Shown: positions 27,315-53,053 of the stretch, piece after piece
How the letters are laid out: the number at the start of each line of letters is the position of its first letter
Position numbering within the stretch: position 1 is the stretch's first letter
NCBI GenBank assembly: GCA_903921455.1
Contig: CAIXPZ010000311.1
Coordinates: 1-64,000, forward strand
Direction of reading: 5' to 3'
DNA from: an uncultured Verrucomicrobia subdivision 3 bacterium
GTDB lineage: Bacteria; Verrucomicrobiota; Verrucomicrobiae; Limisphaerales; UBA11358
DNA: 64,000 bases
Program-made: the position numbers and the translations under genes
The notes under the pieces: generated by a model
What the model was told of the DNA's origin: nothing
Database searches by the model: none
What the model saw: only the letters and a program-made list of their open reading frames with translations

Positions 27315-27340
27315 GCGCCTTCTCAGAAATAAAGCCGACA
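27315..27340 (-). promoter_or_regulatory. Putative ECF promoter (element A)
   Basis: Minus strand: TGTCGG (27340-27335), 15 bases, GGCGC (27319-27315), 37 bases before the start at 27277. It also shares GTGAAGCC, 29 bases after TGTCGG, with element B. Confidence 0.65.
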
Positions 27341-27414
27341 ACCTATCTCCAAATCTTCGCTGATTCTGGAAGCTGTTCAAAAACGTCCCTGTCGTGGGCA
27401 GGTGATCAAAGCGA

Positions 27415-30400
27415 TTACGGTCCCAGCAAAACGCGGTAAAAACGCCGCGGCATTTGGGCCGGGTTCGTATCGGCCCAAATGAACGGCAGCGTGGCGGGAT
27501 TCGTCGTGAAAATATTCGTCCACGTCAGCAGGTTGGTGGAAGCCGCAACGATGTAGTCGGGGCCAAGGGCTCCATTAATGTTCAAGCAGAACAAACCATT
27601 GGTCATCATCGGCGATGAGGCGACCGGCAGCGTGACGGAGCGCACCGTGACGTTGAAATTCTGCGTGGCACTCAGGCTGGGGAACCCATTGTCCGCAACC
27701 ACAATCGTAAATGGATTAATCGTGTGCCCCTGCGAAATCAACGGTCGCCAGTTCAAGATGCCGTTGGAGGCGTTCATCATCGCATTGCTGGGGGCAACCG
27801 GCATGGAATAGGTCAGCGTTTGGCCCGGCTGGTTCGAGTCGGTGGCCAGATTCGTAAACAACAAGGTTTGTCCGGGGTTGATAAACCGATCCGAGGCCGG
27901 ATAAGTGAACTTGGGCGGCGAATTCGAGGAAACTCCGGTGTTGATCAAAACCGTAGTGATGGAATACGGAGCCAGCGTGAGGTTGCGATCGCCCGACAGG
28001 CTAGCTCCCGCCAGATTTTCCGCAAGCGTGAGGCGCTGTTGCACCGCGCCGTCGTTCGCCGTTTTGTAAACCTGCCAGGCGCGTTGCTGCGGATCGGCGG
28101 ACCAATAGTCGGCAGTTTGGATTACCGAATAACTGTAGTTGCTGCTTGTGTTGATGATCACCAGAATCAGCTGGTCACTGATCTGCGGAATGCTGTTGGT
28201 GTGCCGGTAGAGGGAGACGAGCACATTCGGATCACTGCCGGTTGCTTGCGCCCGCCAGTCACTGGGCCGGATGAACTTGCTGTAATGCCCCAAGGCACAG
28301 AAAGTATCGCTCGTCGTTGAAAGCGACAAACCCCACATGAGATAGGTATTGGCTTGTTCGATAGTGAAAACATTGTGCATCGGCAGACAGTGCATCATCC
28401 AGCCTGGAACATTCGTTCCGTAACTGTTGTCGCCAAAAAATTCGGTCATGTAAATCGTATTGGTCGGATACGCCGCGCGCAGGCCGGACAGACTCCCGGT
28501 GACGTGACCGACATCGTTGACTGATCCTTGATAGGGATGATGCGCGATGGCCGTGAGGCTACCGGCCGGAAGGTTGTTTAGGTAACTGGAAATGGTGCTT
28601 GGATTTCCCGTTGTCGTATCCGGGCCGATGAATTTCACAAAGCCGAGGCCGTTCGTTGCCAAAGAATTTTTCACCGCCGCGAGCGCCTGCGGATAACCAG
28701 CCTTGGTGCTCGACTCGGTGCTCGCCAGATAATTTCCTGCCTGCCACGCGGCGTAAAAATTCGTCCCGCCAGGTGTGAAGTCGCACTCGTTTTGAATCGA
28801 GATAAAATCGGGAATAGCCTGCGTGACCGAGAGCGTCGAGTTGTCGCGCAGATATTGGAGCGAGCGCAGCCACCAGTCAGCGTAATCCGCGTAGCGATAC
28901 ACCGAGTTCGTTTTCGCAAGCGTTCCGCCTTGTGCGCTGCCGGTGCTCTTGAAACGTCCTGGCGGCGACCATGCCGCCATGGTGATCAAGCCGTTGGGCT
29001 GCATGGCCCGATACAGCTTAATAAACTGGACGTTATCCGAATCCCAACCCGACCAGAAAACACTCGGCTCATCCAGCCAGCACTCGAAGGAATTAGCCAA
29101 CCGGACGAACGAGAGGTTCAGATTTGTCGGGGCGAAGGCTAGGTTGAATTGCGCGCTGTTCCACGCAATGCCCTGCGGACCCAGACAGAAATTCGCCCCG
29201 ATGCCGTGGATCTGCTGGTAGGTGGTCGCCGGATTCAACGTGATAGTGCCGATGGTTGAACCGTCTGGCGCGCTGAGATCGCGGACTTGGATGGCATTCA
29301 GTTGTGCGGAATTTCCTCCAGCCGGCAGCACGCCAGCCAAGGTGAAGGTCTGATTGGTGGCATTGGCTGTGAAGGTGCCGATGGTATATTGGCCGACGCC
29401 ACCGTTGGTGCCGGTATTATTGTAGTCGAGCGTGACCGTGTTACCGCCGCTGCTGGTCACGGTCTCGGTGCGGTTGGACGCCAGCGCACGATTGTCGTTG
29501 ACCCAGATTTGAACCAGATACGGATGGCCGGCCATGAGATTTTTCAAAGTCACCGTCTGGGTTCCGTTGTTCGCGGTGTAAGCGCCGCCTTTGAGTGTCG
29601 TCTGATACGCGGAACTCAAGCCGCTCCAAGGACTGCCCGTGCCGCTGCCAAATGCCGTCGGGCTAAAAGAAGTATTTCCGCTCATGCTCACATTGGAGCC
29701 AAATGCACTTTGGCTATTGCCGGCGGCGAAAGCCCCCCCATTGACCGACGTGGCCGTGTTCGCGTCATTGTAGGCGTATAACAGGCCGCCATTGGTGATC
29801 ACGTCGGTGTCGTCAGCAATCGTGGCCGGCGCCCCCCAGAGAATGTTGGAACTGGCAATGCCCGACTGCACTGAAATCGAGCCGTTCGTTAGTAATTGGC
29901 TGGTATCCCAAACCAGGCCGACATTCAGCGGCGGCAGAATCGTGTAGATGAAAGCTCCGTTATAGCTGGCGGCGTTGAATAGCGTAAAAGCATCCCCTGC
30001 CTGCAAGGTTGATCCCGCGTTGATCACTGACAAGCCTCCGCCGTAAGTCAGCGTCGTCACGCCCGTCACACGGCTGGCGTTTTGGGCATTGGTCCGATTC
30101 AGAGTCATCACGGTGGTGCCGGCAAGCGTCAACGCATTGCTGAAGATTAAAGTCGAAATATCTGCGCCGCCGAGTCCGGGCTGAAGAGTTCCTCCATACA
30201 AAACCGTCACGGCTCCAGTTATGGCGCCATTCCCGGCAAGCGTCTGGCCGGTGGACACCAGCCAACCACCAGAAACCGCAGAGACATCCAGGGTTGCTCC
30301 CGCCAAAATGTTGATGGATGAGCTGTTGGCAATGGAACCATTGGCACTCAAAGTTAACGTGCCGTTGCTGATCGTGGTGGCTCCCGTGTAGGTGTTGGTG

Positions 30401-31701
30401 CCGGCCAGCGTCAGCGTGCCCGTGCCGAGTTTGGTCAAGCCGCCGCCGGTGGACGCAACATCCTCAACCAACGGGGGCACGATGGTGATGGCATACCCGG
30501 CATCATCCATGACCGCGTCGCCGGCCTGCACTTTCAAGTTCGAGGCATTCATCAGGAAATTCGGATTATTCGCGCCGCCCCTGAGCGTGCCGCCGTTGAA
30601 GTTGACGTTGAACGTCACGTTGCCCTTCGCAACGTTGGTCACGGTCAGCGTGCCGCCATTAAGAGTCAATGTGCCGCTCGCGCTGCCGCCGCCCGTGCCG
30701 AACTGGGTGAAGCCGGAGCAGTTCACCGCGCCGCCGTTGAGCGTGAGCCCGGAACCGACGCTGTTGCCGCTGCCGACGTTGATGCTCGTGACATTGAGCG
30801 TGGTGCCGCTATCCACGACCAGCGTGCCACGGTTGGCTTGAAAGGCGCCGAGCGCAACCGTGCCGCTGTTGGTGAGTTCAAGATTGCTGACACCGTCCTT
30901 GATGAAATTATAGCCGCCGCCGGAAATCGCGCCGGCGAGCTGGATAGAGCCCGCGCCGACACGCGTCTGGCGACCGAGCGTGATGGGGCCGGTGTAAACC
31001 GAAGTCGAGGAGGCGGAATTGTAGAATGCCCCGACATCGAAGCCATTCGCCGTGCTGTTCAACGTGAGCGGCGGATTGGCGGTCGGCGAAACACCGCCGA
31101 GGTCAAGAATGCCGGAACCGCTGACAACAAGGCTGGAGGCGTTGTTCACGCCATCGCCCAGAACCGTTGTCGAACCCAATTTCAAAATTCCGGCACTGAC
31201 AGTGAGCGCGCCGGTGTTGGTGTTCGCGCCGGAGAGGACGAGCGTGCCGGAGCCGGCTTTGGTGACGCCAGCTGAACCGGCCAGCGTCGCGCTGATGGTC
31301 GCGATCTTGCCCGAGCCGAGCGTGTTCACCGTGATGGTGGGCGTGCCGCCGGCAAACGTGAGGATGTTGGCGCTGGAACCGTTGTTGTCGAGCGTCCAAC
31401 TCGCGGCAGAGGTCGTGTTCGTGTCGCCGAAAATGAGATTGCCGATGGTCCGCGCGGAGTCGAGATGCACCACGGTCGGGTCCGTAGCGATGTTGATAGA
31501 ATTAAAATCAGCCGTGAAGCCGGAGCCGTCGGCCGCGATGCTATTGCTCCAGTTGGCCGTCGCGCTCCAATTGCCACCGGTGACGGCGTTCGTCCAAGTG
31601 CCGCTGGCAGCATGAAGCATCGGCGTAGCCACCATCACGGCGACTCCGAGCCAGCGGCGAAATCCGCGCGCGAACTTATTTGGATGCTCGAAAAAGTCCA
31701 T
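27415..31701 (-). CDS. PATR-repeat / GH30 xylanase-like fusion protein (1428 aa)
   Basis: A signal peptide (~residues 17-32) leads to an N-terminal unit SGTWTNAVTGGNWSATANWSNSIAADGSG and about 600 residues of PATR beta-helix. A domain beginning ILWGAPATIADDTDVITNGG (about residues 620-810) follows. Then comes a GH30 barrel, ATTYQQIHGIGANFCLGPQ, with AAWSPPGRFKSTG, acid/base Glu in FISIQNECDF and nucleophile Glu in YMTEFFGD, plus its beta-domain. A cadherin-like/putative-Ig segment (DRFINPGQTLLFTNLATDSN) and the shared C-terminal module ending RRFYRVLLGP close it. GH30 with this motif set is mostly glucuronoxylanase. The long beta-helix probably presents the enzyme away from the surface. Two prepilin-like genes lie directly upstream. 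Confidence 0.85.
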   Translation of the reverse strand: MDFFEHPNKFARGFRRWLGVAVMVATPMLHAASGTWTNAVTGGNWSATANWSNSIAADGSGFTADFNSINIATDPTVVHLDSARTIGNLIFGDTNTTSAASWTLDNNGSSANILTFAGGTPTITVNTLGSGKIATISATLAGSAGVTKAGSGTLVLSGANTNTGALTVSAGILKLGSTTVLGDGVNNASSLVVSGSGILDLGGVSPTANPPLTLNSTANGFDVGAFYNSASSTSVYTGPITLGRQTRVGAGSIQLAGAISGGGYNFIKDGVSNLELTNSGTVALGAFQANRGTLVVDSGTTLNVTSINVGSGNSVGSGLTLNGGAVNCSGFTQFGTGGGSASGTLTLNGGTLTVTNVAKGNVTFNVNFNGGTLRGGANNPNFLMNASNLKVQAGDAVMDDAGYAITIVPPLVEDVASTGGGLTKLGTGTLTLAGTNTYTGATTISNGTLTLSANGSIANSSSINILAGATLDVSAVSGGWLVSTGQTLAGNGAITGAVTVLYGGTLQPGLGGADISTLIFSNALTLAGTTVMTLNRTNAQNASRVTGVTTLTYGGGLSVINAGSTLQAGDAFTLFNAASYNGAFIYTILPPLNVGLVWDTSQLLTNGSISVQSGIASSNILWGAPATIADDTDVITNGGLLYAYNDANTATSVNGGAFAAGNSQSAFGSNVSMSGNTSFSPTAFGSGTGSPWSGLSSAYQTTLKGGAYTANNGTQTVTLKNLMAGHPYLVQIWVNDNRALASNRTETVTSSGGNTVTLDYNNTGTNGGVGQYTIGTFTANATNQTFTLAGVLPAGGNSAQLNAIQVRDLSAPDGSTIGTITLNPATTYQQIHGIGANFCLGPQGIAWNSAQFNLAFAPTNLNLSFVRLANSFECWLDEPSVFWSGWDSDNVQFIKLYRAMQPNGLITMAAWSPPGRFKSTGSAQGGTLAKTNSVYRYADYADWWLRSLQYLRDNSTLSVTQAIPDFISIQNECDFTPGGTNFYAAWQAGNYLASTESSTKAGYPQALAAVKNSLATNGLGFVKFIGPDTTTGNPSTISSYLNNLPAGSLTAIAHHPYQGSVNDVGHVTGSLSGLRAAYPTNTIYMTEFFGDNSYGTNVPGWMMHCLPMHNVFTIEQANTYLMWGLSLSTTSDTFCALGHYSKFIRPSDWRAQATGSDPNVLVSLYRHTNSIPQISDQLILVIINTSSNYSYSVIQTADYWSADPQQRAWQVYKTANDGAVQQRLTLAENLAGASLSGDRNLTLAPYSITTVLINTGVSSNSPPKFTYPASDRFINPGQTLLFTNLATDSNQPGQTLTYSMPVAPSNAMMNASNGILNWRPLISQGHTINPFTIVVADNGFPSLSATQNFNVTVRSVTLPVASSPMMTNGLFCLNINGALGPDYIVAASTNLLTWTNIFTTNPATLPFIWADTNPAQMPRRFYRVLLGP

Positions 31702-31741: not shown

Positions 31742-32527
31742 TTACCAGTAACCGGTAATTTCCTTCCGGGTGGCAGTATGGCCATCAAGAAACAGATAAT
31801 TTCGCACACTGCCATGCAGAACTTTGGGCGGCAATGAAGCATACCAGCCGGGTTTGGAGCTATTGTTCACCCAAACCTGCTGGTCGGTATCGGCCAAAGC
31901 CCAAACCTCAGTCAGCGGACGGACTGCAGAAATCGCGCTCAACTTTTGGGTCGGGGCACGCCCGCCACTATTGGGTTGATAGCCAAAGATGCTCCATGGT
32001 AATGGCGGAAGGCCCGGTCCCCAAACATCAGATCCACCTTTACCATCCGAAGTTCCTCCGCCGGGAACGGTATACAATATCTGTGCGGCCACGACGCTCA
32101 AGGTCGAATTGGGAGTCCAATTGGCATAGCCAGGACAGATAAATACCTTGGAATAGCGCAAGGTATTATCGGGAGCCTGACCCAAATACGAGGTCAGATA
32201 ATAGATCAGCATGGAGTTGTAGCTTCCGCCCGGGGCTCCGGCCGCACACAGTTGAAATTGTGCCTGCTGCCCGCTCCACAGACCGTATTCACCGCCGCTG
32301 TCATAGCCGGCACAGAGCTTATCGTTGTTATCGTTGAGATACATGCTCAATGCGATGCTAGCCTGGTGAAAATTGGAAAGGCAGCCGATTTTGTAGGCTT
32401 TCTGTTTGGCCGCAGCCAGCGCGGGCAGAAGCATGGCCGCTAAAATGGCAATGATGGCTATGACCACCAGCAGTTCGATCAGGGTGAACGCTGCACGCTG
32501 CTTTTGTATAAGGTAATTCATGTCCAA
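31742..32527 (-). CDS. Prepilin-like (type II secretion pseudopilin) protein 1
   Basis: 261 residues. Residues 14-42 form a type III signal segment, [28 protein letters not shown]. The residue before the processing-site Phe is Ala rather than the usual Gly, which may weaken prepilin peptidase cleavage. The rest is the globular domain common in Verrucomicrobiota/Planctomycetes, with [25 protein letters not shown] early and [21 protein letters not shown] late (an H-x-DG-like ending). It is probably inserted in the inner membrane and part of, or mimicking, a type II secretion pseudopilus. It lies 40 bases upstream of the PATR-GH30 gene and 36 bases after a second prepilin gene. Confidence 0.85.
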
Positions 32528-32563: not shown

Positions 32564-33364
32564 TCACCAAGGCCCCGCATCCAAATCACTCGGCTTGTAA
32601 TAAACTGTCCAGGTGCTCGCCGTTCCGCCTGGCTGAATGGGAGAGGATGCCGCCGCCGCCCCGGTTCCCGTCCATTTGAAATTCCGCCACTCCGCATGCG
32701 CATCTTCATAGAGAAAGTTCCCGCCGCTGGGAATGTTGCCGTTACCGCCATGATTGCTGATAGGCGTGGCTTGTCCGCCAACGACATTCACCCAACTCCC
32801 GGCCGCTTCCTGAATCTTGTCAATCATGACGGGTGCCTTGCGATAGACACCGCCAAACTTGGTGCGATTCAGAACCCAGTTTCCCAAGCCAAAGGCGTTG
32901 TAATTATCACCCCCCGCCAGCCGGCCGCCGGACAGAAACTGGTAACCAATCAAGTTCGTCGTGCCGGGGAAAGCCGTTTCATAAACCCGGTGATAAAGAT
33001 CCGTCGGACAATAAATGACGTCGTTTTGATTACGGGTGCCGGCCGTGGTCGTTCCCGCTTTGTTGGCATACAAATAGGCCGGATAGAAACTGAGGTTCCA
33101 AGCCCCGGACACCCACGCCCAGTCTTTTGCGCCACCGCCGCTGTTATCGGGAAACTTGTCCTGATTATCCCCGGCATACATCGCCAGTGCCGTGCCCCAT
33201 TGTTTGAGATTGCTCAAACATTGGGTTTGGTAGGCTTTCTTTTTTGCCGCCGCCAGCGCGGGCAGAAGCATGGCCGCGAGAATTGCGATAATCGCAATCA
33301 CCACCAGCAGTTCAATAAGCGTGAATCCTACTTCGCGTAATGTTTTGTTTATTATCGTTCTCAA
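32564..33364 (-). CDS. Prepilin-like (type II secretion pseudopilin) protein 2
   Basis: 266 residues. The prepilin cleavage motif is canonical here ([21 protein letters not shown], Gly before Phe). The globular part has [29 protein letters not shown], a cysteine in [10 protein letters not shown] and [17 protein letters not shown] near the end. It shares family and architecture with the neighbouring prepilin gene, but the C-terminal domains are diverged, so they are old paralogues rather than a recent duplication. Strong hairpins at 33381-33416 and 33442-33463 separate it from the PATR gene upstream, so it likely has separate transcription or a processed transcript. Confidence 0.85.
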
Positions 33365-33488: not shown

Positions 33489-36400
33489 TTACGGATAAAC
33501 CAACCGGTAAAAGGCATTGGTGCCTTTATTGATTGGGATACTGGCTGCGTTGGTTGTTTCGTAACCAATCGAACCCCAGTCGCTGGCGATCTTGCTGACG
33601 CCCTTGCTCACATTGTTCGTCTGCATCTGCAAATTGTAACCGATATGATCCGCCGGCCAATTCAGTGAAAGATTTGTGCCCCCCACCACAATGGTCGTCA
33701 GGTTGAAGGGAGATTGATTTGGTTGTAGGGTTACGTTCACCGTGTAGAGGTTTGTGTAGGGCGCACCCGCCGCCGATGTCACCAACACCTGAATGACGTT
33801 CGTCGTTCCTAAATTCAGCGGAATGCCGCCACTCGGTGTCCCCGACATCAACAGCCCCGCCACCACACCGTTGGTAATCAATAAGTTCGTCGCCGTCAGA
33901 TCGGCGTTCATCACGGTAACGGTCGGCACGCTGCCGTAGACTTCGCTCGCTGCATAGAGCGTTGTGTTCGACGTGAATGTGGGGCTGAAGCTCAACGCGG
34001 GGTTCAACGTGAGCGATAGCAGATACGCATTCGTGCTGACGGGCGCCACCACCGGTTGAACCAGCAGCAAACCCGCGCCGGTCAGGAAAGGCGCTGCGTT
34101 GGCGCTGCTGTAAAGACCGGGCACCTGGTTCGTGCCGTCCAGCACCAAGGCGGCGACCTGATTGGTCACGCCATAATCGAGTTGCAGCACCGCGCCATTG
34201 GTCACGGTCACCGTGGAATTGGTCGAAAGCGAAGCCACGGCCAATTCCAGCGTGCCGCCGTTGACCGTGGTGTTGCCGGTATAAGTGTTCGTGCCAGACA
34301 GATACAAGGTAGATGCACCGTTCAGAACCAAGTTGACTTTCCCGCTAATCACACTGCCGTAGGTGCTGGGAGCTGACAGATTCAGCGTCAGCGTGCTGAA
34401 GTTCGTCGAGCTATTGTTCACCGAACCTCCGGCCGGATTGGCCAGCCCCGTGAAGGTCTGGCTGTAACCATTCAGATCAAACGAACCGCCGCCGATTGAC
34501 AGGGTGGCATTGGTGCAAATGCCGTTGTTGGCACCGATTTGCGTCGTGCCGCCGGCGATGCCAAAGCTGCTGTAATCGCCGCCGCCCGAGAAGCGTGTGC
34601 GACCGTTGCGTGAACTAATGCCTCCACCAACGTTAAGATTCGTCACCGGCCCGGCGATAACCAGCCAGTTCGTGCCGCTGCCTGGTCCGCAGAAGACGCC
34701 ACCGTGCTGGACGGTCGCACCTACCGCGATGGTGATCGGGCCGGAGAAGGTGCCGCCGTTGGTGTCGCTGGCTCCGTAGTTACCATTGGGACCGGGATCC
34801 ACCATCAGCACGCCGTTGAAGAAATCCGAGGCGTTCACGACGGTGATGGCGTTGCTGATGTTCAGACCGCTGCCGACATAGAGCTGGTTGTAATACGCGC
34901 CGCCGCCCAAATTGCCGTTGTCAATCGTGACCGGGCCGGTCCCGAGCGCGTGGGGATTGTAGGTATAAACCGAGCCGACGTTGATGGTCAGGCCGCCGGC
35001 GAAGCTGTTGCTTGCCGTCAGCTTGAGTCCGACCAAGCCGTTGTTCAAACTGCCGGGCGTGGAGTTGGAGTAAGCCAGCGCACCCGCACCCACGATTTGA
35101 TTGGTCAGCGTCTGCGTGCCCGCGACGTGGTAAGCCAGCGTCGCGCCCCCATTCACCGTGGCCAGAATACCGGAAGCCGGCGCCCCCAGTGCGTTGGCGT
35201 TGGCGGCGATCAACAGGCCGTTGCTGACGACGGTGCCGCCGGTATAGGAATTCGCGCCACTCAAAATCAATCCGCCGATGTCATTGCCGACGACTTGCTG
35301 CGCGCCGCCGATGGTGCCGCTTAAGGTCAAATCGGTGGCCCCACTGGCAATGGTCTGGCCCGAACCACTGATGCTGTTGGTAATCGTCTGGCTGGAGGCG
35401 TTGGAAACCACCAGCGAGGCATTGTTCGCAATGGTGCCAACCACCGAACCGTTGACGGACACGCCATCACCGAGTTGCAGCGTGCCGCCATTGACCGTTG
35501 TGCCGCCGGTGTAATCGTTCGCCGTGGTCAGCGTCACGCTGCCGGTGCCGTTTTTAACCAAATTGGCCGTGCCCGTGATGTAGCCGCTGGTCAGGACGTA
35601 ATCGTTTGTCGAATTAAATGTCACCGAACCGGGTTGAATGGCACCGGAGATGACCACCGCCGCATTGGCGGGCGGGACATTGCTGAACAGCACGTTATCG
35701 CTCGTGTAAAACCAGTCCGGCGTGCCGCTGTTCAGCCAGTCCTGGGTAAGCTGCACATCCCAGGCATTACCGCTGCCGCCCTGCCAGACGAGGTTGACGT
35801 TGAAACCGCCCACCTGCAAAAGCACGCGCTGCGGAGAACTGCTGGTATCATAGATAATGCCATAGGTCTGGCGTCCGCCTGTGGGCACATTTTGGAGATA
35901 GAAACTGCCCGCGCTGCCGCCGAGGCTGGCGGCTTGAATCAAAACGTAATTGGTCTGGAGAAATCCGCCGACCGGCCAGTTCGCTAGATTGATGGCCGTC
36001 GTGCCGCTGGGCGTCATCGTGCCGCCGACATTAATCACGTCGTTGCTGCCGCCCGCGCTGAAATCAAAGTTCAGCGTGTCGCTGCCCACGAGCGTCAGGT
36101 TCGTGGTGATGGTCAAGGTGCCCACCGTGCCAATGCCGCCGGGATTGAACTGGCTGCCGCCGCTGTCGGTCACGCTGCCGTTGACCGTGCCACCGCCACC
36201 GAGTGCCTGGCTTGAACCCAGCGCAAAGGGGGGGGAAACTGCCGACAAGTCCAAGACCGCACCGGCTGCGACGGTAATGTTGGTCGTGTTGGGCAACGTC
36301 GCGGCTGCGCCCAGCACGAGCGTGCCGGCGTTGATGGTGGTGCCACCACCATGGGCGTTGGCGGCATTCAATTGCACGACCCCGGCACCGGTCTTGATCA

Positions 36401-38705: not shown

Positions 38706-38744
38706 ACGGTTTATTAAATAGTTTTCGGGCTTCACTCATCAATT

Positions 38745-38770
38745 GCGTCAATCCCAATGCAAACCCGACA
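38745..38770 (-). promoter_or_regulatory. Putative ECF promoter (element B)
   Basis: Minus strand: TGTCGG (38770-38765), 15 bases, GACGC (38749-38745), 39 bases before ATG 38705. GTGAAGCC sits 29 bases after TGTCGG as in element A. Confidence 0.65.
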
Positions 38771-44374: not shown

Positions 44375-47300
44375 CTACGGAAACTGGATTAGCAGAAACC
44401 GGCGCGGCTGGCCACCGGTGATGGGATTGGTGACGCGAAAATTCCCCACGGAGTCAAACTGGTTGGTGACCAACCGCGTCCAGTTCGTCAGCGGCAGGGC
44501 GAGATTGGTGGTGGCGAGCACATAATAATTGCTCGTCGCGATTCCGCCGGTGCCGGTGAAAATAAAATTGGTCGAGAGCTGTGCGGCGGTGGCGATGACC
44601 GGCTTGAACGCCAGCAAATTGACCTGTCCGGCCACGTTGGTCGCGAGGATGAATTTATATCCGGCGGGCATCGTCCCCAATGCCAGACTGCCGGCAAGGG
44701 TGCCGGTGTAAGCAAACAGCGTGTTTGTGCCGGGGGCAAAACCGGCAAGATTTGTCGCGTTCAGCGTACCGCCGACGGCAAGATTGCCTTTGACCAAGAT
44801 GCGGTCACTGTTAGTGCCAAGTCCAAAACTGGAAAAGGAACCCGCCGCCAGCGTGAGATTGTTGCTCACGGTCAGCGTTCCGGCTGTCCCGCTATTGGTG
44901 CCGGGTGAAATTGTGGCACCGGCTAGGACAGATACCGGGCCGTTGATGACACCAACACCAGCCAAAGCGCCACCGGCGACGGTAACGGTGTTGGTGGGGA
45001 TTGTGCCGTTGACCTGTAATGTGCCATTGCTGATGGTCGTAGTGCCGGAATAAGTGCTTGTACCGGCGAGCGTGAGCGTGCCCGCGCCAACTTTGACCAC
45101 CGAACTGATGCCGTAGGTTGCATCGTCCACAATTTTGCCGGCATAAACAGAATCGAGATTGTTCCCGCCGATCATGAAGGTTGTTGGCGCAGCCACAGCG
45201 GAGGCCCCGGAGAGCGTCGTGCCCGCGCCGCCGGCGAGCGCGCCCAACTGCACCGTGAGATTGCCATTGCGGTTGTATATTTTGCCGTTGTTGGTGCCGA
45301 GGTCGAAGGTCGCGCCGGCACTTCCGCTGTTGCCGCCGTAAAGCCGCGCTTGAGGGTTCACGCCGGTGAAAAAAATGGTGCCGCCAAAACCGCTCCAGTC
45401 GCCCACCGGCGTGAACTGGCCGGAGGCGATGGGACTCAACAACAACCGTCCGCCGCCGGTCAGCACGGAACTCGGCGAGGCATTGACGCCGCCGCTGATA
45501 ATCCAAGTGTTCGTGCCCAAACACGAAATGGGATTGGCGAAGCTGGCGCTGGCCTCGTTCAAGGTGCCGCCGTTCAGATAAATCGTGCCGCTGCCGCCGG
45601 CGTTGGCGTTGTTCGTGATGATGACCGTGCCACCGGTGATGACGAGTCCGCCGCTAAAAGAATTGGTCCCGGTGAGAGTCAATATACCGGAGTTGGTTTT
45701 GACCAGCGTGAAACTGCCGACGAGTGTGCCGCTGCCGCCAAACGTGTAATTTTTCGTTGAGTTGACCAACAGTGAATTTGGCGAGAGCTGGCCGACGATG
45801 TTCACCGGCAAACTGTTCGAGCCGGTGTCATCGAAAGTCACGTTGTCATCGCCGTTGAAGGATTGCAGCGCCGCGCCGTTAAACCAGTCGTTGGTCTGGT
45901 AGAGATTCCAGACGTTCGCGACATTGTCGCCGCGCCACACCAAATTTGTCGGCGGAGCAATCGGCGAAACCAGCACGCCGAGGGAGTTCGTCATGCTCGC
46001 TCCGTTCATGCCGGTCACGCTGAACGAGAAACTGCCCAGACCGGTGAAATTCGTCGCAGGCAGGAAGCGCGCCCAGCGGTTGCTGACGAGCGTAATCGTG
46101 CCGTTCGTGAGATTCCAGAACACATAAGCCGGCGAAAGATTGGTGAAGGTCAGCGTGAGCGGCGACAAATCAACATCCGCCGATGCGTTCTTGTAAGTTT
46201 TCAGGTGCGGCGCGGCCAGCCAGTTCAAATAATTTTCCAGCAGCGTATAGCCGTTGATGGCCACGACGTTGTTGTCAGCAACCTGGTAATTGGAGCCGGT
46301 CGCGAGTTCCCATTCGTCCGGCATACCGTCACCGTCGGTGTCCGCCGGCGCGCTGCCGCCAGTGATGGTCCACGCGGGAATCGGATCGCCGGTCCACGCG
46401 TTGGTCGGGTCGGTGTTGGCCATGTAAAGCGCCGCTCCCGGCCCGCGCGTGCCGAGCGATTGCGCCTGCGCCACGAGTTCGGCGTCCAGCGGATCGCGGC
46501 TCAGAGAACAGCCCGCCTGACAAACCACTTTGTGATACGCCAGCACCGCGCTGTCCACCGTCACGGGAATGGTGGGAAAACAAATCTGCGTCGGCGACAC
46601 GGTGGGTGCAAAGCTGCCGGAGCCGGCCACCAAGGGCACGCCATCCAGTTTGCCGTTGAGATTGTTGTCCCAGTAGTTGCCGCTGAGATAATAGTTTCCG
46701 GCATTGGTGCCATTCACATTCACACCGGTGTTGACAGAATTGGCGTTGGACCCGGGGCCGTTGATCTGATAATTGCCGATGAAGTCAACCATCTCCGCGC
46801 CCTCGCCGTAAATGCCCAGCCGGAAATTGTAAACGACGTCGTTGATGATCTGCATGTTTCCCCACGTCTTTGGATCGCGGCCGGCGTTGTCGATGAATAA
46901 ATTGTGATGGAACGTGAGATTCACCGGCGACCAGCAGAGCGCGCCGAGCTGGTGCCAGACGCTCGCGCCGATGATGCAGTTCTGCACCGTGATGTCCGTG
47001 GGCTGTTCGCCGGTCGAGGCATTGTAGGTGATAGAGAACGTCTGCCAGTTGCCGACTTCGATAGAGCAATGATCCAACATGACCTTGTGCGCCGGTTTCA
47101 GCGCCAGCGAATAGGTGTCTCCCGCCTGCACATACCCGGCGCGAAACCGCATATGGCGGACAATGATGTTCGTATGACTCACGGAGTTCGTCGCGCCAAA
47201 ACCGTGGTTCAAATAAACCGTCGCTCCGGCAGTGGCAATCCCCTGCCCCGGCGCGGTCTGACCGGCGAGGGTGAGGTTGTCCACCACTTCCACATCGGAG

Positions 47301-47536
47301 TTGAGATTTATGATGCCACCGACATCAAAAACCACCGTGCGATTCGGCTGGCTCACCGCGTCACGAAATGACCCCGCGCCAGCATCCGCCAACGACGTGA
47401 CATGATAAACCGTCCCGCCGCGTCCGCCGCTGGCACCAGCACCGTAGCCTTCCGCGCCGGGAAAGGCGGGAAGCTGGGCGAGGGCCGGGAAAAAAACGGC
47501 CAGCAGACAAATTGAAATTAGGATTCTGACGTGCAT
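44375..47536 (-). CDS. Pectate lyase-like (PL1) / PATR fusion protein
   Basis: About 1053 residues from ATG 47536; a TTG two codons earlier is also possible. The signal peptide (RILISICLLAVFFPALA) is followed by a pectate-lyase type beta-helix: FPGAEGYGAGASGGRGGTVYHVTSLADAGAGSFRDAV, TLAGQTAPG, IIVRHMRFRAG, VMLDHCSIEVGNW. A DTDGDGMPDEWE calcium-binding thrombospondin-3-type segment marks the domain end near residue 400. An Ig-like stretch, PATR beta-helix repeats (~560-950) and the C-terminal module ending RRFLLIQFP follow. It should cleave polygalacturonate outside the cell. It diverges from the ECF sigma gene, with a TGTCGG-type promoter only 15 bases from the ATG. Confidence 0.85.
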   Translation of the reverse strand: MHVRILISICLLAVFFPALAQLPAFPGAEGYGAGASGGRGGTVYHVTSLADAGAGSFRDAVSQPNRTVVFDVGGIINLNSDVEVVDNLTLAGQTAPGQGIATAGATVYLNHGFGATNSVSHTNIIVRHMRFRAGYVQAGDTYSLALKPAHKVMLDHCSIEVGNWQTFSITYNASTGEQPTDITVQNCIIGASVWHQLGALCWSPVNLTFHHNLFIDNAGRDPKTWGNMQIINDVVYNFRLGIYGEGAEMVDFIGNYQINGPGSNANSVNTGVNVNGTNAGNYYLSGNYWDNNLNGKLDGVPLVAGSGSFAPTVSPTQICFPTIPVTVDSAVLAYHKVVCQAGCSLSRDPLDAELVAQAQSLGTRGPGAALYMANTDPTNAWTGDPIPAWTITGGSAPADTDGDGMPDEWELATGSNYQVADNNVVAINGYTLLENYLNWLAAPHLKTYKNASADVDLSPLTLTFTNLSPAYVFWNLTNGTITLVSNRWARFLPATNFTGLGSFSFSVTGMNGASMTNSLGVLVSPIAPPTNLVWRGDNVANVWNLYQTNDWFNGAALQSFNGDDNVTFDDTGSNSLPVNIVGQLSPNSLLVNSTKNYTFGGSGTLVGSFTLVKTNSGILTLTGTNSFSGGLVITGGTVIITNNANAGGSGTIYLNGGTLNEASASFANPISCLGTNTWIISGGVNASPSSVLTGGGRLLLSPIASGQFTPVGDWSGFGGTIFFTGVNPQARLYGGNSGSAGATFDLGTNNGKIYNRNGNLTVQLGALAGGAGTTLSGASAVAAPTTFMIGGNNLDSVYAGKIVDDATYGISSVVKVGAGTLTLAGTSTYSGTTTISNGTLQVNGTIPTNTVTVAGGALAGVGVINGPVSVLAGATISPGTNSGTAGTLTVSNNLTLAAGSFSSFGLGTNSDRILVKGNLAVGGTLNATNLAGFAPGTNTLFAYTGTLAGSLALGTMPAGYKFILATNVAGQVNLLAFKPVIATAAQLSTNFIFTGTGGIATSNYYVLATTNLALPLTNWTRLVTNQFDSVGNFRVTNPITGGQPRRFLLIQFP

Positions 47537-47551
47537 TTCCAATTAATTTAT

Positions 47552-47577
47552 GCGCCAATCTACGACCAAATCCGACA
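47552..47577 (-). promoter_or_regulatory. Putative ECF promoter (element C)
   Basis: Minus strand: TGTCGG (47577-47572), 15 bases, GGCGC (47556-47552), 15 bases before ATG 47536. The leader would be very short, so translation may be almost leaderless. Confidence 0.65.
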
Positions 47578-47629
47578 AACTGCTTTTCATTTTTTGGTTT
47601 GCGGTTAATTTTTGCCGGAATCAAACCTC

Positions 47630-48193
47630 ATGCCCGACCACGACCTCACCCTGCTGCTGCAATCCCTGGGCAAGGATGACGGCCACGCATCGAGCGAACT
47701 GCTGCCGCTGGTCTATGAGGAACTACGCCGGCTCGCCGGGGCGCGGATGCGCCAGGAAATGGCCGGACACACGCTTCAACCCACCGCGCTGGTCCACGAG
47801 GCCTGGATGCGGATGGTCGGCGAAAGCGACCGCACCTGGAAAAACCGCGCGCACTTTTTCGCCGCCGCGTCCGAATGTATGCGGCGCATTCTCATCGAAA
47901 GCGCCCGCCGCAAATCGCGCCTCAAGCGTGGCGGCGGCCAGGCGAAGCTGAACATTGACGACCTGGAACTGGCCGCCGCCTCGCCCGACGATAAAATCCT
48001 GCTGATCGACGAAGCCATCGGACAGCTGGAAAAAGAAGATCCGGAAAAGGCGCGCGTGGTGGTGATGAAATTTTTCGGCGGCATGACCAACCAAGAAATC
48101 GGCGAGCACCTCGGCGTGACCGAGCGCACGGTGGAACGCCATTGGGCCTACGCCCGCGCCTGCCTGTTCCAGATCATCCGCGCGGAGATTTAG
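47630..48193 (+). CDS. ECF-type RNA polymerase sigma factor (sigma-70 family)
   Basis: 187 residues from ATG 47630 (MPDHDLTLLLQSLGKDDG..); an ATG six codons earlier is in frame, but the MPDHD start is also seen in the relic at 53137. Region 2 runs SSELLPLVYEELRRLAGARMRQE..LQPTALVHEAWMRMV and FFAAASECMRRILIESARRK. Region 4 has the helix-turn-helix MTNQEIGEHLGVTERTVERHWAYARACLF. This is the ECF type typical of Verrucomicrobiota, Planctomycetota and Acidobacteriota, usually next to a Ser/Thr kinase and without an anti-sigma factor. The kinase follows 52 bases downstream. It is the best candidate reader of the TGTCGG-N15-NCGC elements. The gene ends with TAG. Confidence 0.9.
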   Translation: MPDHDLTLLLQSLGKDDGHASSELLPLVYEELRRLAGARMRQEMAGHTLQPTALVHEAWMRMVGESDRTWKNRAHFFAAASECMRRILIESARRKSRLKRGGGQAKLNIDDLELAAASPDDKILLIDEAIGQLEKEDPEKARVVVMKFFGGMTNQEIGEHLGVTERTVERHWAYARACLFQIIRAEI

Positions 48194-48198
48194 CCGCC

Positions 48199-48224
48199 TG
48201 TCGGATTATCCCGGCATAAGGCGC
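48199..48224 (+). promoter_or_regulatory. Putative ECF promoter (element D)
   Basis: TGTCGG (48199-48204), 15 bases, GGCGC (48220-48224), 21 bases before the kinase ATG 48246. It sits between the sigma and kinase genes. Confidence 0.65.
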
Positions 48225-48245: not shown

Positions 48246-50489
48246 ATGAACGCACAGCCACAACCAGACGAAGCTGCCATCTTCGACGATGCCCGGCGGA
48301 TGACCAATCCCGCCGAGCGCGCGGCGTTTCTTGACCGTGCGTGCCAGGGCGACACCCCGTTGCGCGAACGCATTGCCAAGCTGTTAAGCTTCGATCCGCA
48401 GGCCCAGGAATTTTTTGACGGGGTTGTCGAAAAGTTTTCCGCCGCCAATCTGGGGGAGATTTCCGACGCCGAGACCCCAGTCGTGGACGAACAAATCGGC
48501 ACGGTCATCGGTCGTTACAAACTTCTGGAAAAAATCGGCGAAGGCGGCTGCGGCGTCGTTTACATGGCCGAGCAACAGAAGCCGGTCCGCCTCCGCGTGG
48601 CGCTCAAAATCATCAAGCTCGGCATGGACACCAAGTCCGTCGTCGCCCGTTTCGAGGCCGAACGGCAGGCGCTGGCGATGATGGATCACCCGAACATCGC
48701 CCGGGCGCTCGACGCCGGCGCGACCGAAACCGGCCGGCCGTATTTCGTGATGGAACTCGTGCGCGGTTTCAAGATCACCGAATACTGTGACCAGAATAAT
48801 TTGCCCATGGCCCAGCGGCTGAACCTGTTCATCCAGGTTTGCCACGCCATCCAGCACGCGCACCAGAAAGGCGTCATCCACCGCGACATCAAGCCGTCGA
48901 ACATTCTGGTGACACTGCATGACGGCGTGCCGGTGCCGAAAGTGATTGATTTCGGCATCGCCAAGGCGATTGAGGAACCGCTGACCGAGCTGACGCTGTT
49001 CACCGCCTATGCGCAGCTCATCGGCACCCCGGCTTACATGAGCCCGGAGCAGGCGGAGATGAGCGGGCTGGACATTGACACGCGCAGCGACGTGTATTCG
49101 CTCGGCGTTTTGCTCTATGAATTGCTCACGGGTAAAACGCCGTTTGACAGCCAGGAGCTGATCAAATCCGGCGTGGACCATTTGCGCCGCACGCTGCGCG
49201 ATAAGGAACCGGCGGCGCCCTCGATGATGGTCACGACAATGCAGGGCAACGAACTCCTCGCCACCGCCGAGCACCGCCGTTCCGAGCCGATGAAGCTCAT
49301 CACGGCGTTGAGCGGCGACCTGGACTGGATCGTGATGAAGGCTTTGGACAAGGATCGCCAGCGACGCTACCAGACCGCCAACGGCCTGGCGTTCGATGTC
49401 CAGCGCCACCTGACCAACGAGCCGGTGCTGGCACGTCCGCCGGGCAGGTTTTACCGGCTCCAAAAGCTCGTGCGACGGAACAAGATTGTTTTCGCCGCCG
49501 GCACCGCCGTCGCCTTGGCGCTCGTCGTCGGGCTGGGCATCTCCACGGTGATGTTTTTCCGCGAACGCGAGGCGCGCAAAATCGCCGACGACGCGAAGCA
49601 GCGGGAAATCCAGTTGCGCGAGGCGGCGGAGCGCGGGCGGCAGAATGAAATGCTGCTGCGCGAGGAAGCCGAGTCGCGCGAAAAAATCGTGCAAGCCGCC
49701 GTGTTACTGCGGAACAACCGTTTTGAGGAAGCCGACCGGCTGGTGGCGGCGCTGCCGCCGAACCAGGAAAATCTGGCCGGCGCCTTTGTCTTCCGCACGC
49801 TCGGCGAATGGCACGCCTTGCGCGGCGAATGGCAGCCGGCCGCCGAGCGTTTTGCCGTGCTGCTGCGCATCAACCAGCCGGACGAGATGTATTCCTCCTC
49901 CATGGATTTTTCCATGCAGGCGCCGGTGCTGGTGCAACTGGGCAAACTCGCCGACTACGAACAGTTGCGGCGCGAGATGATGCGTCGGTTCGCCGACGTG
50001 TCCGATCCGCAGGTGGCCGAGCGCGTGCTGAAAAATTCGTTGCTCGTGCCAGCCAGCGGCGAGGCCGTGAAAACCCTGCAGCCAATTGCGAGCTACATTT
50101 TGGTCTATGTTCAGGGCATGAGCACGGCCTATCCGGACAAGACGGCGTGGCAATTTTCGGCGCTGGGATTGTTTTACCTCCGGCAAGGCAACTTTGCCGA
50201 GGCGGCTGATAATTGCCGGAAATGCCTCCGTTACGTCGGGCCGGAGGGATCCAACTCACCCCGTCTCGCTGCCGCCAACGTCATTCTGGCGATGTGTGAA
50301 CACCGACTCGATCACCACGATCTGGCGCTGGAAAAACTGGCGGCAGGCAAAAGCCTGATCGAGCAGAATTTTATGGAAGGCTTGAAGCGCGGCAGCGGTT
50401 TTTCCGGCTACTGGTTTGACTGGCTGCTGGCGCGGGTTTTACTACAGGAGGCCGAAGCCATGAAAATGGAAAGCACGCGCTTCCCCTGA
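48246..50489 (+). CDS. Membrane Ser/Thr protein kinase with C-terminal TPR-like region
   Basis: 747 residues. An N-terminal helical ~85-residue stretch (AIFDDARRMTNPAERAAFLDRACQGD) typical of sigma-linked kinases precedes the catalytic domain: Gly-loop IGEGGCGVVY (97-106), Lys121 in VALKIIK, HRDIKPSNI with catalytic Asp, VIDFGIAK with the metal-binding Asp, GTPAYMSPEQA and SDVYSLGVLLYELLTG. A transmembrane helix (IVFAAGTAVALALVVGLGISTVMFF) follows near 420-445. A coiled coil and helical TPR-like repeats (FEEADRLVAALPPNQENLAGAFVFRTLGEWHALRGEW) lie outside the membrane. It probably senses an extracellular cue and acts on the sigma factor encoded just upstream. No anti-sigma gene is present. Confidence 0.9.
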   Translation: MNAQPQPDEAAIFDDARRMTNPAERAAFLDRACQGDTPLRERIAKLLSFDPQAQEFFDGVVEKFSAANLGEISDAETPVVDEQIGTVIGRYKLLEKIGEGGCGVVYMAEQQKPVRLRVALKIIKLGMDTKSVVARFEAERQALAMMDHPNIARALDAGATETGRPYFVMELVRGFKITEYCDQNNLPMAQRLNLFIQVCHAIQHAHQKGVIHRDIKPSNILVTLHDGVPVPKVIDFGIAKAIEEPLTELTLFTAYAQLIGTPAYMSPEQAEMSGLDIDTRSDVYSLGVLLYELLTGKTPFDSQELIKSGVDHLRRTLRDKEPAAPSMMVTTMQGNELLATAEHRRSEPMKLITALSGDLDWIVMKALDKDRQRRYQTANGLAFDVQRHLTNEPVLARPPGRFYRLQKLVRRNKIVFAAGTAVALALVVGLGISTVMFFREREARKIADDAKQREIQLREAAERGRQNEMLLREEAESREKIVQAAVLLRNNRFEEADRLVAALPPNQENLAGAFVFRTLGEWHALRGEWQPAAERFAVLLRINQPDEMYSSSMDFSMQAPVLVQLGKLADYEQLRREMMRRFADVSDPQVAERVLKNSLLVPASGEAVKTLQPIASYILVYVQGMSTAYPDKTAWQFSALGLFYLRQGNFAEAADNCRKCLRYVGPEGSNSPRLAAANVILAMCEHRLDHHDLALEKLAAGKSLIEQNFMEGLKRGSGFSGYWFDWLLARVLLQEAEAMKMESTRFP

Positions 50490-50639: not shown

Positions 50640-53000
50640 TTAACGCGGTTTAAGTTTGCCCGTTAATTCGAAGTGGTGTTTGCCGGAGCACACGCGCACA
50701 GTGGCTTCGGTCCGCTTGCCGTCCATCGTTGCCAGCGAATTCTCAAATCGTTCCACCGGCAGCGCCACCTCAGCTTCAGCCCCGTCCGGAACAATCACAT
50801 CCAATGAAAATTTTCCATTATCGATCAGCCAGGCGACTTCAACATTGCCACGCGGGGTCGGCACTTTTCCTTGGGCCCACGTCAGATTGCACAATTGCGG
50901 ACGGATGGAGATCAGCTTGAAACCCGGCGCGGCCGGAGTAATCCCCAGAATTTTCGACGACATCTGCACCAGCGTGGTCGAGCACCAGCCGTGACTCAGA
51001 TCGCCGTTGTTCCACATTTCGCGGAATGATTGCGTCTCCGGCACGATCTGCCAGCGATACATTTGCGGCGTGGCGTATTCATCGAACAGACCCGCATGAT
51101 CAATTGCCTGGAAAACCCAGTGCATGAACCACGGCTGGGTGTTGAGCGGTTTTTCCGCCAGCACTTTTCTCACGATGACCGACTGATTTGCTTTCGGCGC
51201 GAGATCATACAGCACGGCGAGCAGATTGACGTGCGGGCTGAAGGTTTCGATGGCCTTGTCCGCCGGCAGCCATCGCCCCGGTTTGACCGAGGTCTGAAAC
51301 GGCTTGCCGTCGCGATACAACCCCTTGTCTGCCACCCAAAGTTCGCGGTTGAATGCCTCGGCGATTTCCTGGCGCAACTTTCCGTATTTTTCCACGCGCG
51401 CGGAATCACCCGCGATGGCGGCAACTTGCGATGCCATTTCCAATCCGTGATAATAGAACGCGGTGAGATAACCCTGGCCGATCACCGCCGGCGGATGATG
51501 ACATTCAAAGCCGCCAATCTTCACCCAGTCCATGAACATATAATTTGGCGCTTCGGAAATAATTCCGTTCGTCCCGCGCCACGAGGTGTAGGTGTCGATG
51601 AGTTCATGCACGTAGGGCGACATTTCTGCCACGAGCGATTGGTCGCCGGTGTAATCGTAGTAGTCCATCAACATTTGCAGCCAGCCGATGGAATAGCTCG
51701 TGTGGAAGTTGTGATAATTTTCATCCTTGAGCAGCCAGGCGAATTTCCGAATGTCCTGCCGCGCGAGCCACGGCTGCGCAAAGGTCTGGTAATTAACCAT
51801 GGACTCGATGAGATAATCGCCCGGGTCGCTGATGGGCTCCTGGTGGTTGGGCGAATCAAGGTGGTGCGTCTGCAAGCAAATCTGCACCGCCCAGCGTGAA
51901 ACCTCATACAGGCGATTCAACTGGTCGTCGCTGCACTGAAAGGCTCCACGGTATTCCACCGGTTGGGAAGTGAAAATCGCACCGACATCTTCGATCGTGA
52001 CCGGCTCGGTGACACCTTTTAAAGTAACGGTGAATGCCGGGACGACTTCGGTCATGTGGGGGAATTCAAAAAATTGCTCGCCACCCCCCAAGATTATTTT
52101 GGCCTCGTTGTTGGCTTTGACGGTCAGTTCCGCGCCGCGTCCGCCCTTCACTTTCAAAGTGGGATACGCGCTCAACACCCGATCAAACACCACGCGAAAA
52201 GAACCGTCATTGGTGATGACTTTGGAAGGCAATCCTTCTACGCGGAGAACCGGATAGCGCGCTTCCATCAGGGGCGGAATTTCGCTCGCGACGAGCGGCG
52301 ACCACACGTCTTTGACCTCGCTACTCAAGGTCCATTTCGAATCGTCGAAACCCGGCAAACGCCAGCCGGCGGGTTCTTCGCCGGCGTTATAGACCGAGAA
52401 GTTGGGAAATTGCGCGGCCATCGCGGAGCGCCACTGGCTGTCCGATGTCACACGCTCGGTCCTGCCATCCGCATCAACGATTTCAGCCTCGAATAAAAAC
52501 CCCGGCTTCCCCCGTGAAACCGTCCAGCCGGTCCAATTCCGGAAAACCTCGGCAGCAATCACATTTTTTCCAGGATTCAGATAAGATTGCAGATCGCGAA
52601 AGTCATAAAACCAGCGGTGGGTATTGCCGCCGGCGTAATCGCGTCCCATGTCCACCGGCCCGCGCGAAACCAAGCGCCCATTGACGAACAGCCGGTAGCG
52701 GGCATCGGCGGTCAGCCACGCTTTGGCCGAGCGCGGCGCGTTGGGCAGCACGATTTCCTTCCGAAACATCGCGGCGGCAGCGGTGTTTTCACCGGCGAGC
52801 CAGATCCATTTTGCCCGCCACGCGTCAGGCTTCGGACATTCGTTTGAAAAACTATAGGACAGCACTTGAACGCCATTGGAATCCACCAGCACTTTCATGC
52901 CCGGGTATGCGATAGGGCCGAGTGAATCCGCCGCCGATGCCAGCCCGCCGTTCAGGAGCCAAACAATGGACAGGGTCGCGACAATTCGTTTTTGAAGCAT
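50640..53000 (-). CDS. GH78 alpha-L-rhamnosidase
   Basis: 786 residues with signal peptide (IVATLSIVWLLNGGLASA). Two beta-sandwich domains (AKWIWLAGENTAAAAMFRKEIVLP; AKAWLTADARYRLFVNGRLVSRGP) precede the six-hairpin barrel. The barrel has QCSDDQLNRLYEVSRWAVQICLQTHHLDSPNHQEPISDPGDYLIESM and later LSHGWCSTTLVQMSSKILGI followed by the C-terminal beta-domain. The acidic cluster at EPISDPGD is in the place of the GH78 general acid (usually DERLGWTGD), so this is a divergent subgroup. It should remove terminal alpha-L-rhamnose, complementing the GH106 enzyme. It diverges from a sigma-factor relic, with a TGTCGG-type promoter 27 bases upstream. Confidence 0.8.
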   Translation of the reverse strand: MLQKRIVATLSIVWLLNGGLASAADSLGPIAYPGMKVLVDSNGVQVLSYSFSNECPKPDAWRAKWIWLAGENTAAAAMFRKEIVLPNAPRSAKAWLTADARYRLFVNGRLVSRGPVDMGRDYAGGNTHRWFYDFRDLQSYLNPGKNVIAAEVFRNWTGWTVSRGKPGFLFEAEIVDADGRTERVTSDSQWRSAMAAQFPNFSVYNAGEEPAGWRLPGFDDSKWTLSSEVKDVWSPLVASEIPPLMEARYPVLRVEGLPSKVITNDGSFRVVFDRVLSAYPTLKVKGGRGAELTVKANNEAKIILGGGEQFFEFPHMTEVVPAFTVTLKGVTEPVTIEDVGAIFTSQPVEYRGAFQCSDDQLNRLYEVSRWAVQICLQTHHLDSPNHQEPISDPGDYLIESMVNYQTFAQPWLARQDIRKFAWLLKDENYHNFHTSYSIGWLQMLMDYYDYTGDQSLVAEMSPYVHELIDTYTSWRGTNGIISEAPNYMFMDWVKIGGFECHHPPAVIGQGYLTAFYYHGLEMASQVAAIAGDSARVEKYGKLRQEIAEAFNRELWVADKGLYRDGKPFQTSVKPGRWLPADKAIETFSPHVNLLAVLYDLAPKANQSVIVRKVLAEKPLNTQPWFMHWVFQAIDHAGLFDEYATPQMYRWQIVPETQSFREMWNNGDLSHGWCSTTLVQMSSKILGITPAAPGFKLISIRPQLCNLTWAQGKVPTPRGNVEVAWLIDNGKFSLDVIVPDGAEAEVALPVERFENSLATMDGKRTEATVRVCSGKHHFELTGKLKPR

Positions 53001-53027
53001 TTTGATTTTAAGGGTCTAAATCACACT

Positions 53028-53053
53028 GCGCTCCGTCCAGCCCAAACCCGACA
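53028..53053 (-). promoter_or_regulatory. Putative ECF promoter (element E)
   Basis: Minus strand: TGTCGG (53053-53048), 15 bases, AGCGC (53032-53028), 27 bases before the GH78 ATG at 53000. Confidence 0.6.

Follow-up and report, generated by a model that had tools for sequence, protein, structure and literature searches.

The DNA analysed here is a stretch of 64,000 nucleotides (hereafter the window) from an uncultured Verrucomicrobia subdivision 3 bacterium (GTDB lineage Bacteria; Verrucomicrobiota; Verrucomicrobiae; Limisphaerales; UBA11358), namely positions 1-64,000, forward, of contig CAIXPZ010000311.1 in assembly GCA_903921455.1. Its G+C content is 57%. The window carries adjacent genes for an extracytoplasmic function (ECF) sigma factor and a Ser/Thr kinase, genes for polysaccharide breakdown and PATR-repeat surface proteins, and six copies of a two-block element, TGTCGG-N15-RNCGC. 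The comparisons described below suggest that the element represents a real promoter family, very probably read by the adjacent kinase-linked sigma factor. The six sites are as follows, with scores from a weight matrix and from a profile, R1, both built from relatives.

27315..27340, minus strand: promoter-like site before an 83-codon open reading frame (ORF) and the 2390-residue PATR gene; matrix 15.5, R1 E 0.0078
38745..38770, minus strand: promoter-like site before the 1748-residue PATR gene and the genes behind it; matrix 19.1, R1 E 0.0011
39584..39609, plus strand: promoter-like site, the weakest, before the GH29-GH29-FucU-SGNH run; matrix 8.6, R1 none to E=5
47552..47577, minus strand: promoter-like site before the pectate-lyase-like/PATR gene; matrix 26.8, R1 E 8.2e-5
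48199..48224, plus strand: promoter-like site in the sigma-kinase gap; matrix 23.3, R1 E 1.7e-5
53028..53053, minus strand: promoter-like site before the GH78 gene; matrix 11.7, R1 E 0.0014

The regulatory genes and the genes near the sites are listed next.

47612..48193, plus strand: ECF sigma factor, Sig-70_X6 family; PF07638 3e-56, TIGR02999 201.6 bits (cut-off 126)
48246..50489, plus strand: Hanks-type Ser/Thr kinase; PF00069 2.2e-46, TPR_12
19810..26982, minus strand: PATR-repeat surface protein, 2390 residues; PF12951 8.5e-58, N-terminus signal-peptide-like by eye
27415..31701, minus strand: PATR-repeat protein, 1428 residues, end of the run headed by 33489..38735; PF12951 9.5e-15
31742..32527, minus strand: prepilin-like protein, next in the run; PF07963 2.3e-8
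32564..33364, minus strand: prepilin-like protein, 124 bases behind the 1748-residue PATR gene; PF07963 8.7e-6
33489..38735, minus strand: PATR-repeat surface protein, 1748 residues; PF12951 3.4e-30
39640..41331, plus strand: GH29 alpha-L-fucosidase; PF01120 2.4e-75
41244..43115, plus strand: second GH29 alpha-L-fucosidase; PF01120 5.2e-72
43112..43654, plus strand: RbsD/FucU-like protein; PF05025 1.4e-6
43591..44367, plus strand: SGNH/GDSL hydrolase; PF13472 5.7e-21
44375..47542, minus strand: pectate-lyase-like N-terminal part with PATR repeats; NF041900 PelZ 72.7 bits (below the cut-off of 840), PF12951 7.1e-15
50640..53000, minus strand: GH78 alpha-L-rhamnosidase; PF17389, PF17390, PF08531

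The sigma factor is a protein of 193 residues with PF07638 and Sigma70_r4 matches, that is, with sigma-2 and sigma-4 regions only, and its likely start is ATG 47630. Residues 56-59 of the translated ORF read QPTA, a neutral motif of the QxTA type that keeps the conserved Thr and replaces the acidic motif for core binding. A Hanks-type kinase gene stands beside it, and no anti-sigma domain was found in the 35 window ORFs scanned with Pfam. The preliminary description of this DNA had placed an ECF sigma gene of the kinase-linked type, lacking an anti-sigma factor, amid the sites; the PF07638 match, the TIGR02999 score above cut-off, the adjacent kinase, QPTA and the Pfam scan all bear this out. 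A structure search with the sigma protein gave two matches alone, both weak (E 0.002-0.005) and named as designed proteins or similar. The kinase has HRD at 212, DFG at 235, a single strongly hydrophobic segment at about 414-439 (by hydropathy) and a TPR match in its C-terminal part, which would lie outside the membrane. The PADLOC models PD-T4-6 and Mad6 match the kinase domain. A role as an anti-phage kinase was set aside: a sigma gene next door and the promoters point to a regulator, and the matches were attributed to the broad resemblance among kinases.

All six copies of TGTCGG-N15-RNCGC are present, at the coordinates and on the strands previously reported, and their observation is confirmed. 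Dinucleotide shuffles of the window gave 0.69 copies on average, and none of 100 shuffles reached six. At a spacing of 15 bases, every match (6/6) falls in the 100 bases before a gene start and on the strand of that gene, whereas the remaining 17 spacings between 8 and 25 gave 12 matches together, none of them upstream of a gene start. Gene starts were taken from a list curated by hand, and the 100-base zones cover 2.7% of the strand positions of the window. The reported distance of 15-39 bases from element end to start codon also holds, when ATG 47536 and ATG 38705 are chosen over TTG/GTG codons further upstream. The two blocks, as read from the sequence, are not palindromic. The site at 27340 had been assigned to a truncated PATR gene. 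A PATR gene (2390 residues) does lie downstream, but the 83-codon ORF (27026-27277, minus strand), which has a signal-peptide-like start, stands between them. This ORF looks like an inserted or leftover gene fragment; in a relative the site (L083, at 16915) directly precedes the orthologous PATR gene.

The element was then followed in relatives, labelled L for fetched loci and G for genomes. Loci L082 and L083 belong to G001 and L002 to G002, and the sigma factors of these two genomes are 91% and 80% identical to that of the window, respectively. Searching with the sigma protein yielded 80 loci, of which 37 were inspected for the gap that follows the sigma gene; orthologs were compared in 18 chosen loci. 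TGTCGG followed by a CGC block was found in the gap in 9 of the 37, including seven of the eight closest. The oriented element of fixed spacing stands upstream of genes in relatives as in the window. Additional copies occur near the sigma gene in relatives, frequently about 2.4 kb downstream, behind the kinase gene. The consensus from relatives is TGTCGG-nTTT-N12-GCGCAT. The RNCGC of the initial motif covers no more than the edge of that second block. A form of the pattern with variable spacing was dropped as too noisy.

The weight matrix was made from 22 sites of relatives picked by eye. It excludes the window and its closest relative, L001, as well as L023 446+ (a near-copy of L008 1249+) and L048 380+. 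The six window sites take its top six places (26.8, 23.3, 19.1, 15.5, 11.7 and 8.6), the next position scoring 7.9. In 100 shuffles, the mean counts at thresholds of 8.5, 11.5 and 15 were 2.68 (maximum 6), 0.82 (maximum 3) and 0.22 (maximum 2), against 6, 5 and 4 in the window. The stronger sites therefore stand out, and the site of the GH29 operon does not do so on its own. Profile R1, built from 27 sites of relatives without the window, recovers 5/6 window sites at E<0.01 and leaves the GH29-operon site unreported up to E=5. The element described before the GH29 operon is present at 39584, but weak.

The relation between element and sigma factor was analyzed in 146 sigma rows from the fetched loci, corresponding to 145 distinct genes because the row L085 repeats, in truncated form, the gene of L005 from the same genome (G005). 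Matches shorter than about 110 residues, those with inner stops or with no stop in the contig, and identical copies were left out; L023 and L133, 97% identical but from different genomes, were both kept. In 14 of the 145 genes, that of the window included, the element is found no more than 150 bases from the stop codon of the sigma gene. All 14 belong to the 24 sigma genes that encode the recognition helix TERT[VI]ERxWA[YF]A[KR], and none to the 121 without it. A kinase domain is encoded downstream in all 14, within 0.6 kb in 13; over all 145 genes, one is encoded on the same strand within 1.5 kb downstream in 116. When the element was loosened to TG[GT]CNN, spacing 15-17 and [N]CG[CT]A[TC], 28/146 gap rows matched, as opposed to 2.4 in letter shuffles (maximum 9). 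TGTCGG follows 11 of 31 'ERT[VI]ER' sigmas and none of the 114 others; TGGCCC follows 5 of 25 'TAKR' sigmas and none of the 120 others. The remaining 11 matches of the general element carry TGGCGn (5), TGGCAn (2), TGGCCA (1) and TGTCCn (3). In counts that are uncorrected for kinship, -35 specificity follows sigma region 4, and a -35 hexamer that varies with the sigma-4 helix is what reading of the -35 by sigma-4 would predict.

TGGCCC-N16-nCGCAT, observed behind the five 'TAKR' sigmas (L144, L150, L151, L174 and L179), appears to be a sister promoter type. In the Acidobacteria loci L033-L036, L038 and L040, a common stretch like TGAAGGCAGTTG was observed slightly downstream of the sigma stop; it may be a promoter version of their own or an RNA element.

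Co-occurrence was examined in two genome samples, in which the R1 scans used stricter filters, with the loss of weak matches. Among 196 genomes of the order of G001, the sigma factor is present at E<=1e-55 in 56, and an R1 match at E<=0.02 in 12, all among the 56. Without the three training genomes, R1 matches occur in 9/53 sigma genomes and 0/140 others (Fisher p 5e-6). The second sample comprises 87 genomes of the order of G003, of which 7 have the sigma factor at E<=1e-50; R1 matches at E<=1 in this sample were set aside, and its counts are weighed below.

The genes behind the elements are similar in relatives. In the window they are those for the pectate-lyase-like/PATR protein, two PATR proteins, GH29-GH29-FucU-SGNH, GH78 and the kinase; the 1748-residue PATR gene is the first of a run on one strand, in which two genes for prepilin-like proteins and a further PATR gene follow. 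In G001 the targets are the kinase, two PATR genes, GH29, a heparinase-like gene and a pectate-lyase-like/PATR protein, the last being 59% identical to the pectate-lyase-like protein of the window. In G002, where just one X6 sigma scores above the family cut-off, they are the kinase, GH29 and GH78. A site precedes the GH78 ortholog in L002 (at 9911) and the ortholog of the 1748-residue PATR gene in L001 (at 9049), and the GH29 genes of L002 and L083 have sites of their own. In L081, the run that follows the PATR ortholog encodes a protein 86% identical to the prepilin-like protein 32564..33364. On the Opitutia side, TonB receptors are targets (identified by Pfam in L003, L010 and L158 and elsewhere by eye), as are GH43 in L010, a sugar-binding protein in L085 and an MFS sugar transporter in L022. 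In held-out genomes they are LacI/XylR-type regulators, a PATR-like protein and a prepilin-like protein, all by eye, and a beta-helix/ricin-lectin protein with Pfam matches. Sites also precede proteins of no clear or another role in L155, L193, L202 and L209. Judged by these genes, the theme of the regulon would be extracellular polysaccharide use together with surface proteins, and it holds with exceptions.

The regulon seems to be small and to lie close around its sigma gene. In G001, 4/26 matches of the loose motif score above 15; they lie before the ORFs of the kinase, two PATR proteins and the heparinase-like protein. Another 21 score at most 12.2 and are each overlapped by an open frame of at least 100 codons, and the match in L220, at a contig edge, was unscored. 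Two further strong sites, L083 8596+ and 8587-, fall outside the loose pattern. Five of the six strong sites are on two contigs that match the locus of the window. From the G001 counts, a genome-wide regulon defined by the loose pattern was rejected and a local one retained.

On the basis of these results we consider it likely, with good confidence, that all six elements serve as promoters for an ECF sigma factor which is activated by its kinase and runs a local polysaccharide and surface-protein regulon together with that kinase. Each promoter would consist of a -35 block, TGTCGG, a 16-base spacer and a -10-like block, GCGCAT, read by the sigma factor 47612-48193. The membrane kinase may sense a signal derived from polysaccharide or from the envelope through its C-terminal part and phosphorylate the sigma factor, probably at the Thr of QPTA. 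The active sigma factor would then transcribe the small set of neighbouring genes for extracellular breakdown of pectin, rhamnan and fucan and for PATR surface proteins. It would also transcribe the kinase gene, giving positive feedback on its own activator. The element in the 14 sigma genes points away from the sigma gene and towards the kinase gene (L136 has an intervening ORF of 199 residues), and in 0/13 of those genes with 250 upstream bases does an element point at the sigma gene itself. By this orientation the sigma factor would drive the kinase and the targets but, through this element, not itself, and switch-like behaviour is predicted. The motif, its spacing, position, conservation and covariation, and the identities of the targets are read from the sequences; promoter activity, sigma binding, phosphorylation and the signal are what we infer.

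The motif is tied to the sigma factor by its position in the gap, by covariation with the helix, by co-occurrence in genomes and by similar targets in relatives. These four comparative lines uphold the proposal that the sigma/kinase pair governs a pectin/fucan/rhamnan regulon; the theme is less uniform than was proposed, and sensing by the kinase would be one part of the model. For the kinase-linked X6 sigmas of Verrucomicrobiota in general, we lean slightly towards a common code in which a CGCAT -10 and a spacing of about 16 bases are shared, the -35 (TGTCGG, TGGCCC or TGGCGn) is set by the helix, and the sigma factor drives its own kinase and local polysaccharide or surface genes.

Several observations weigh against this interpretation. 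The matrix ranking is partly circular and not fully independent, because the training sites derive from a TGTCGG-N16/17-CGC scan. The GH29-operon site (39584, plus strand) fits the fuller consensus poorly, and at its score up to six sites turn up in a shuffled window as well. The covariation of helix and -35 ignores kinship, and parsimony gives six motif changes and eight helix changes on the tree. No element lies in the gap of 10/24 sigmas with the matching helix, though one of these loci, L011, carries a copy ahead of a TonB-receptor-like gene. The gap of L183, a sigma with a different helix, contains TGTCGG and GCGCAT closer together, and 118/146 gap rows have no general element. Of the 87 genomes, R1 at a cut of E<=0.012, set after viewing the list, finds 3/7 sigma genomes (one of them training) and 1/80 others, and at E<=0.03 it finds 4/7 (two training) and 2/80. 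Weaker R1 matches are widespread, with 45/87 genomes at E<=1. The GH78 ortholog of G001 (L083 1779-4031, 69% identical) has no upstream site, and R1 matches in L202, L204 and L209 precede genes without a polysaccharide look. Finally, the whole-genome enrichment suggested earlier as a check did not appear in G001 (4.1 Mb), where the loose motif gives 26 matches and its reversed pattern 38. A genome-wide test therefore needs the fuller element.

It could be supposed from such counts that all six copies arose by chance or came with repeats, the window being 57% G+C. Twenty-two of the 26 loose matches in G001 are not strong, promoter-placed sites, and the weakest window site is inside the shuffle range. 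This explanation is nevertheless very improbable when six copies are seen and 0.69 expected, when upstream placement is found at spacing 15 alone, and when the element is kept before orthologous genes of relatives. The matrix ranking, the co-occurrence in the 196 genomes and the helix-linked gap positions already contradict it. Another explanation is that the element is the operator of a different regulator, for example a response regulator that may be encoded after the histidine kinase gene (987-3122) or the helix-turn-helix (HTH) protein 54949-55863, the sigma factor being a bystander. The histidine kinase gene does lie upstream, and together with the two following ORFs it has counterparts on the contig that carries the sigma gene in G001. 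On the other hand, the -35 block tracks the helix of the sigma factor across paralogs while the spacing and the second block are nearly fixed, and the element, with its non-palindromic blocks, follows the sigma gene in numerous genomes and keeps a fixed orientation in the window. We regard this explanation as quite unlikely.

It is also conceivable that the elements are real promoters of the sigma factor and that the kinase restrains the sigma factor or acts elsewhere, resulting in negative feedback. Homeostasis would result if the gene so driven encoded an inhibitor, and no phosphorylation data were found for the family. However, QPTA stands in place of the acidic motif, and QxTA is found in 129/145 distinct sigmas. 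According to the available parts of the papers on EcfP and EcfK (PMC13147305, PMC8999054), such a replacement accompanies activation by phosphorylation. A restraining kinase is therefore an unlikely alternative, and we prefer activation of the sigma factor by the kinase. In the same partial sources QTTA is given as the consensus of the motif replacing the acidic one, and in X. citri a sigma factor with Thr51 changed to Ala still works and a second site matters (PMC13147305). For this reason the Thr of QPTA is given here as the probable residue.

The arrangement resembles that of ECF43 sigma factors and Hanks-type kinases, EcfP/PknT of Vibrio parahaemolyticus and EcfK/PknS of Xanthomonas citri, in which the gene for a small ECF sigma factor adjoins that for a membrane Ser/Thr kinase; this likeness is one of motif and neighbour gene, set against descriptions of ECF43 rather than against its sequences. 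As in EcfP and EcfK, QxTA with the conserved Thr replaces the acidic motif of sigma-2.2, and the scanned ORFs have no anti-sigma domain. Unlike in those systems, the proposed regulon of the window is clustered, is concerned with polysaccharide breakdown and surface proteins, and would have a promoter before the kinase gene. The known ECF43-type regulons in the available text concern polymyxin resistance and the type VI secretion system (PMC13147305, PMC8999054). One review predicts regulation by phosphorylation for a significant number of ECF sigmas, and EcfK and EcfP are the worked examples in two reviews (PMC8999054, PMC8103513). The family models Sig-70_X6 (TIGR02999) and Sigma70_ECF (PF07638), of which the window sigma exceeds the TIGR02999 cut-off well, are silent on target promoters; here promoters are proposed, with a -35 type that tracks the helix type.

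In Bacteroidetes, SusCD polysaccharide loci are controlled by an ECF sigma/anti-sigma pair, with a FecR-type anti-sigma factor, or by a hybrid two-component system. The locus of the window is like them in that a regulator lies amid its own glycoside-hydrolase genes, and in that TonB receptors are targets in Opitutia relatives. It differs in having a kinase where those loci have the FecR-type factor, and PATR surface proteins; a SusC/SusD pair was not found, the 35 ORFs giving neither a TonB receptor nor a SusD match. Should the common code considered above for the kinase-linked X6 sigmas be correct, it would add a third, phosphorylation-based and self-amplifying control of polysaccharide loci beside anti-sigma and two-component control. 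The predicted promoter code would make kinase-linked ECF regulons readable from genomes. It would also link Ser/Thr kinase signalling to polysaccharide breakdown in Verrucomicrobiota, for which control of such loci was not found described in the literature searched. Neither the element nor a kinase-linked sigma polysaccharide regulon in this phylum was found in that search, which covered titles and the starts of abstracts, with subscription papers mostly outside it. Predicted group promoters may be given in the ECF reclassification of 2021 and in the EcfP paper of 2020. Kinase-linked ECF sigma factors are a known kind; within the reach of the literature search, what is new is the regulon, with its promoter code and its wiring.

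The earlier suggestion that kinase control is an alternative to two-component control is not supported by the content of the window. The histidine kinase gene (987-3122, plus strand) is followed by ORF 3135-3767 (plus strand), which would fit as its response regulator, and a series of GH106, GH30 and GH2 genes, in which no strong motif copy was found, shares that side of the window with them. A second control system for the same polysaccharide, acting through this histidine kinase, is possible. In G001, locus L082, on the contig of the sigma gene, carries counterparts of the histidine kinase, of the two ORFs that follow it and of GH30. The GH30 genes of the window (14772-16433) and of L082 (1927-3396) are 70% identical, and neither has an upstream site among the matrix matches.

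The right end of the window (54949-63999) looks like a transposable phage or element, which we take to be of the Mu type. It contains a match to the phrog_310 transposase (60680-63094), the repressor-like/HTH protein 54949-55863 and small proteins with weak HTH matches.

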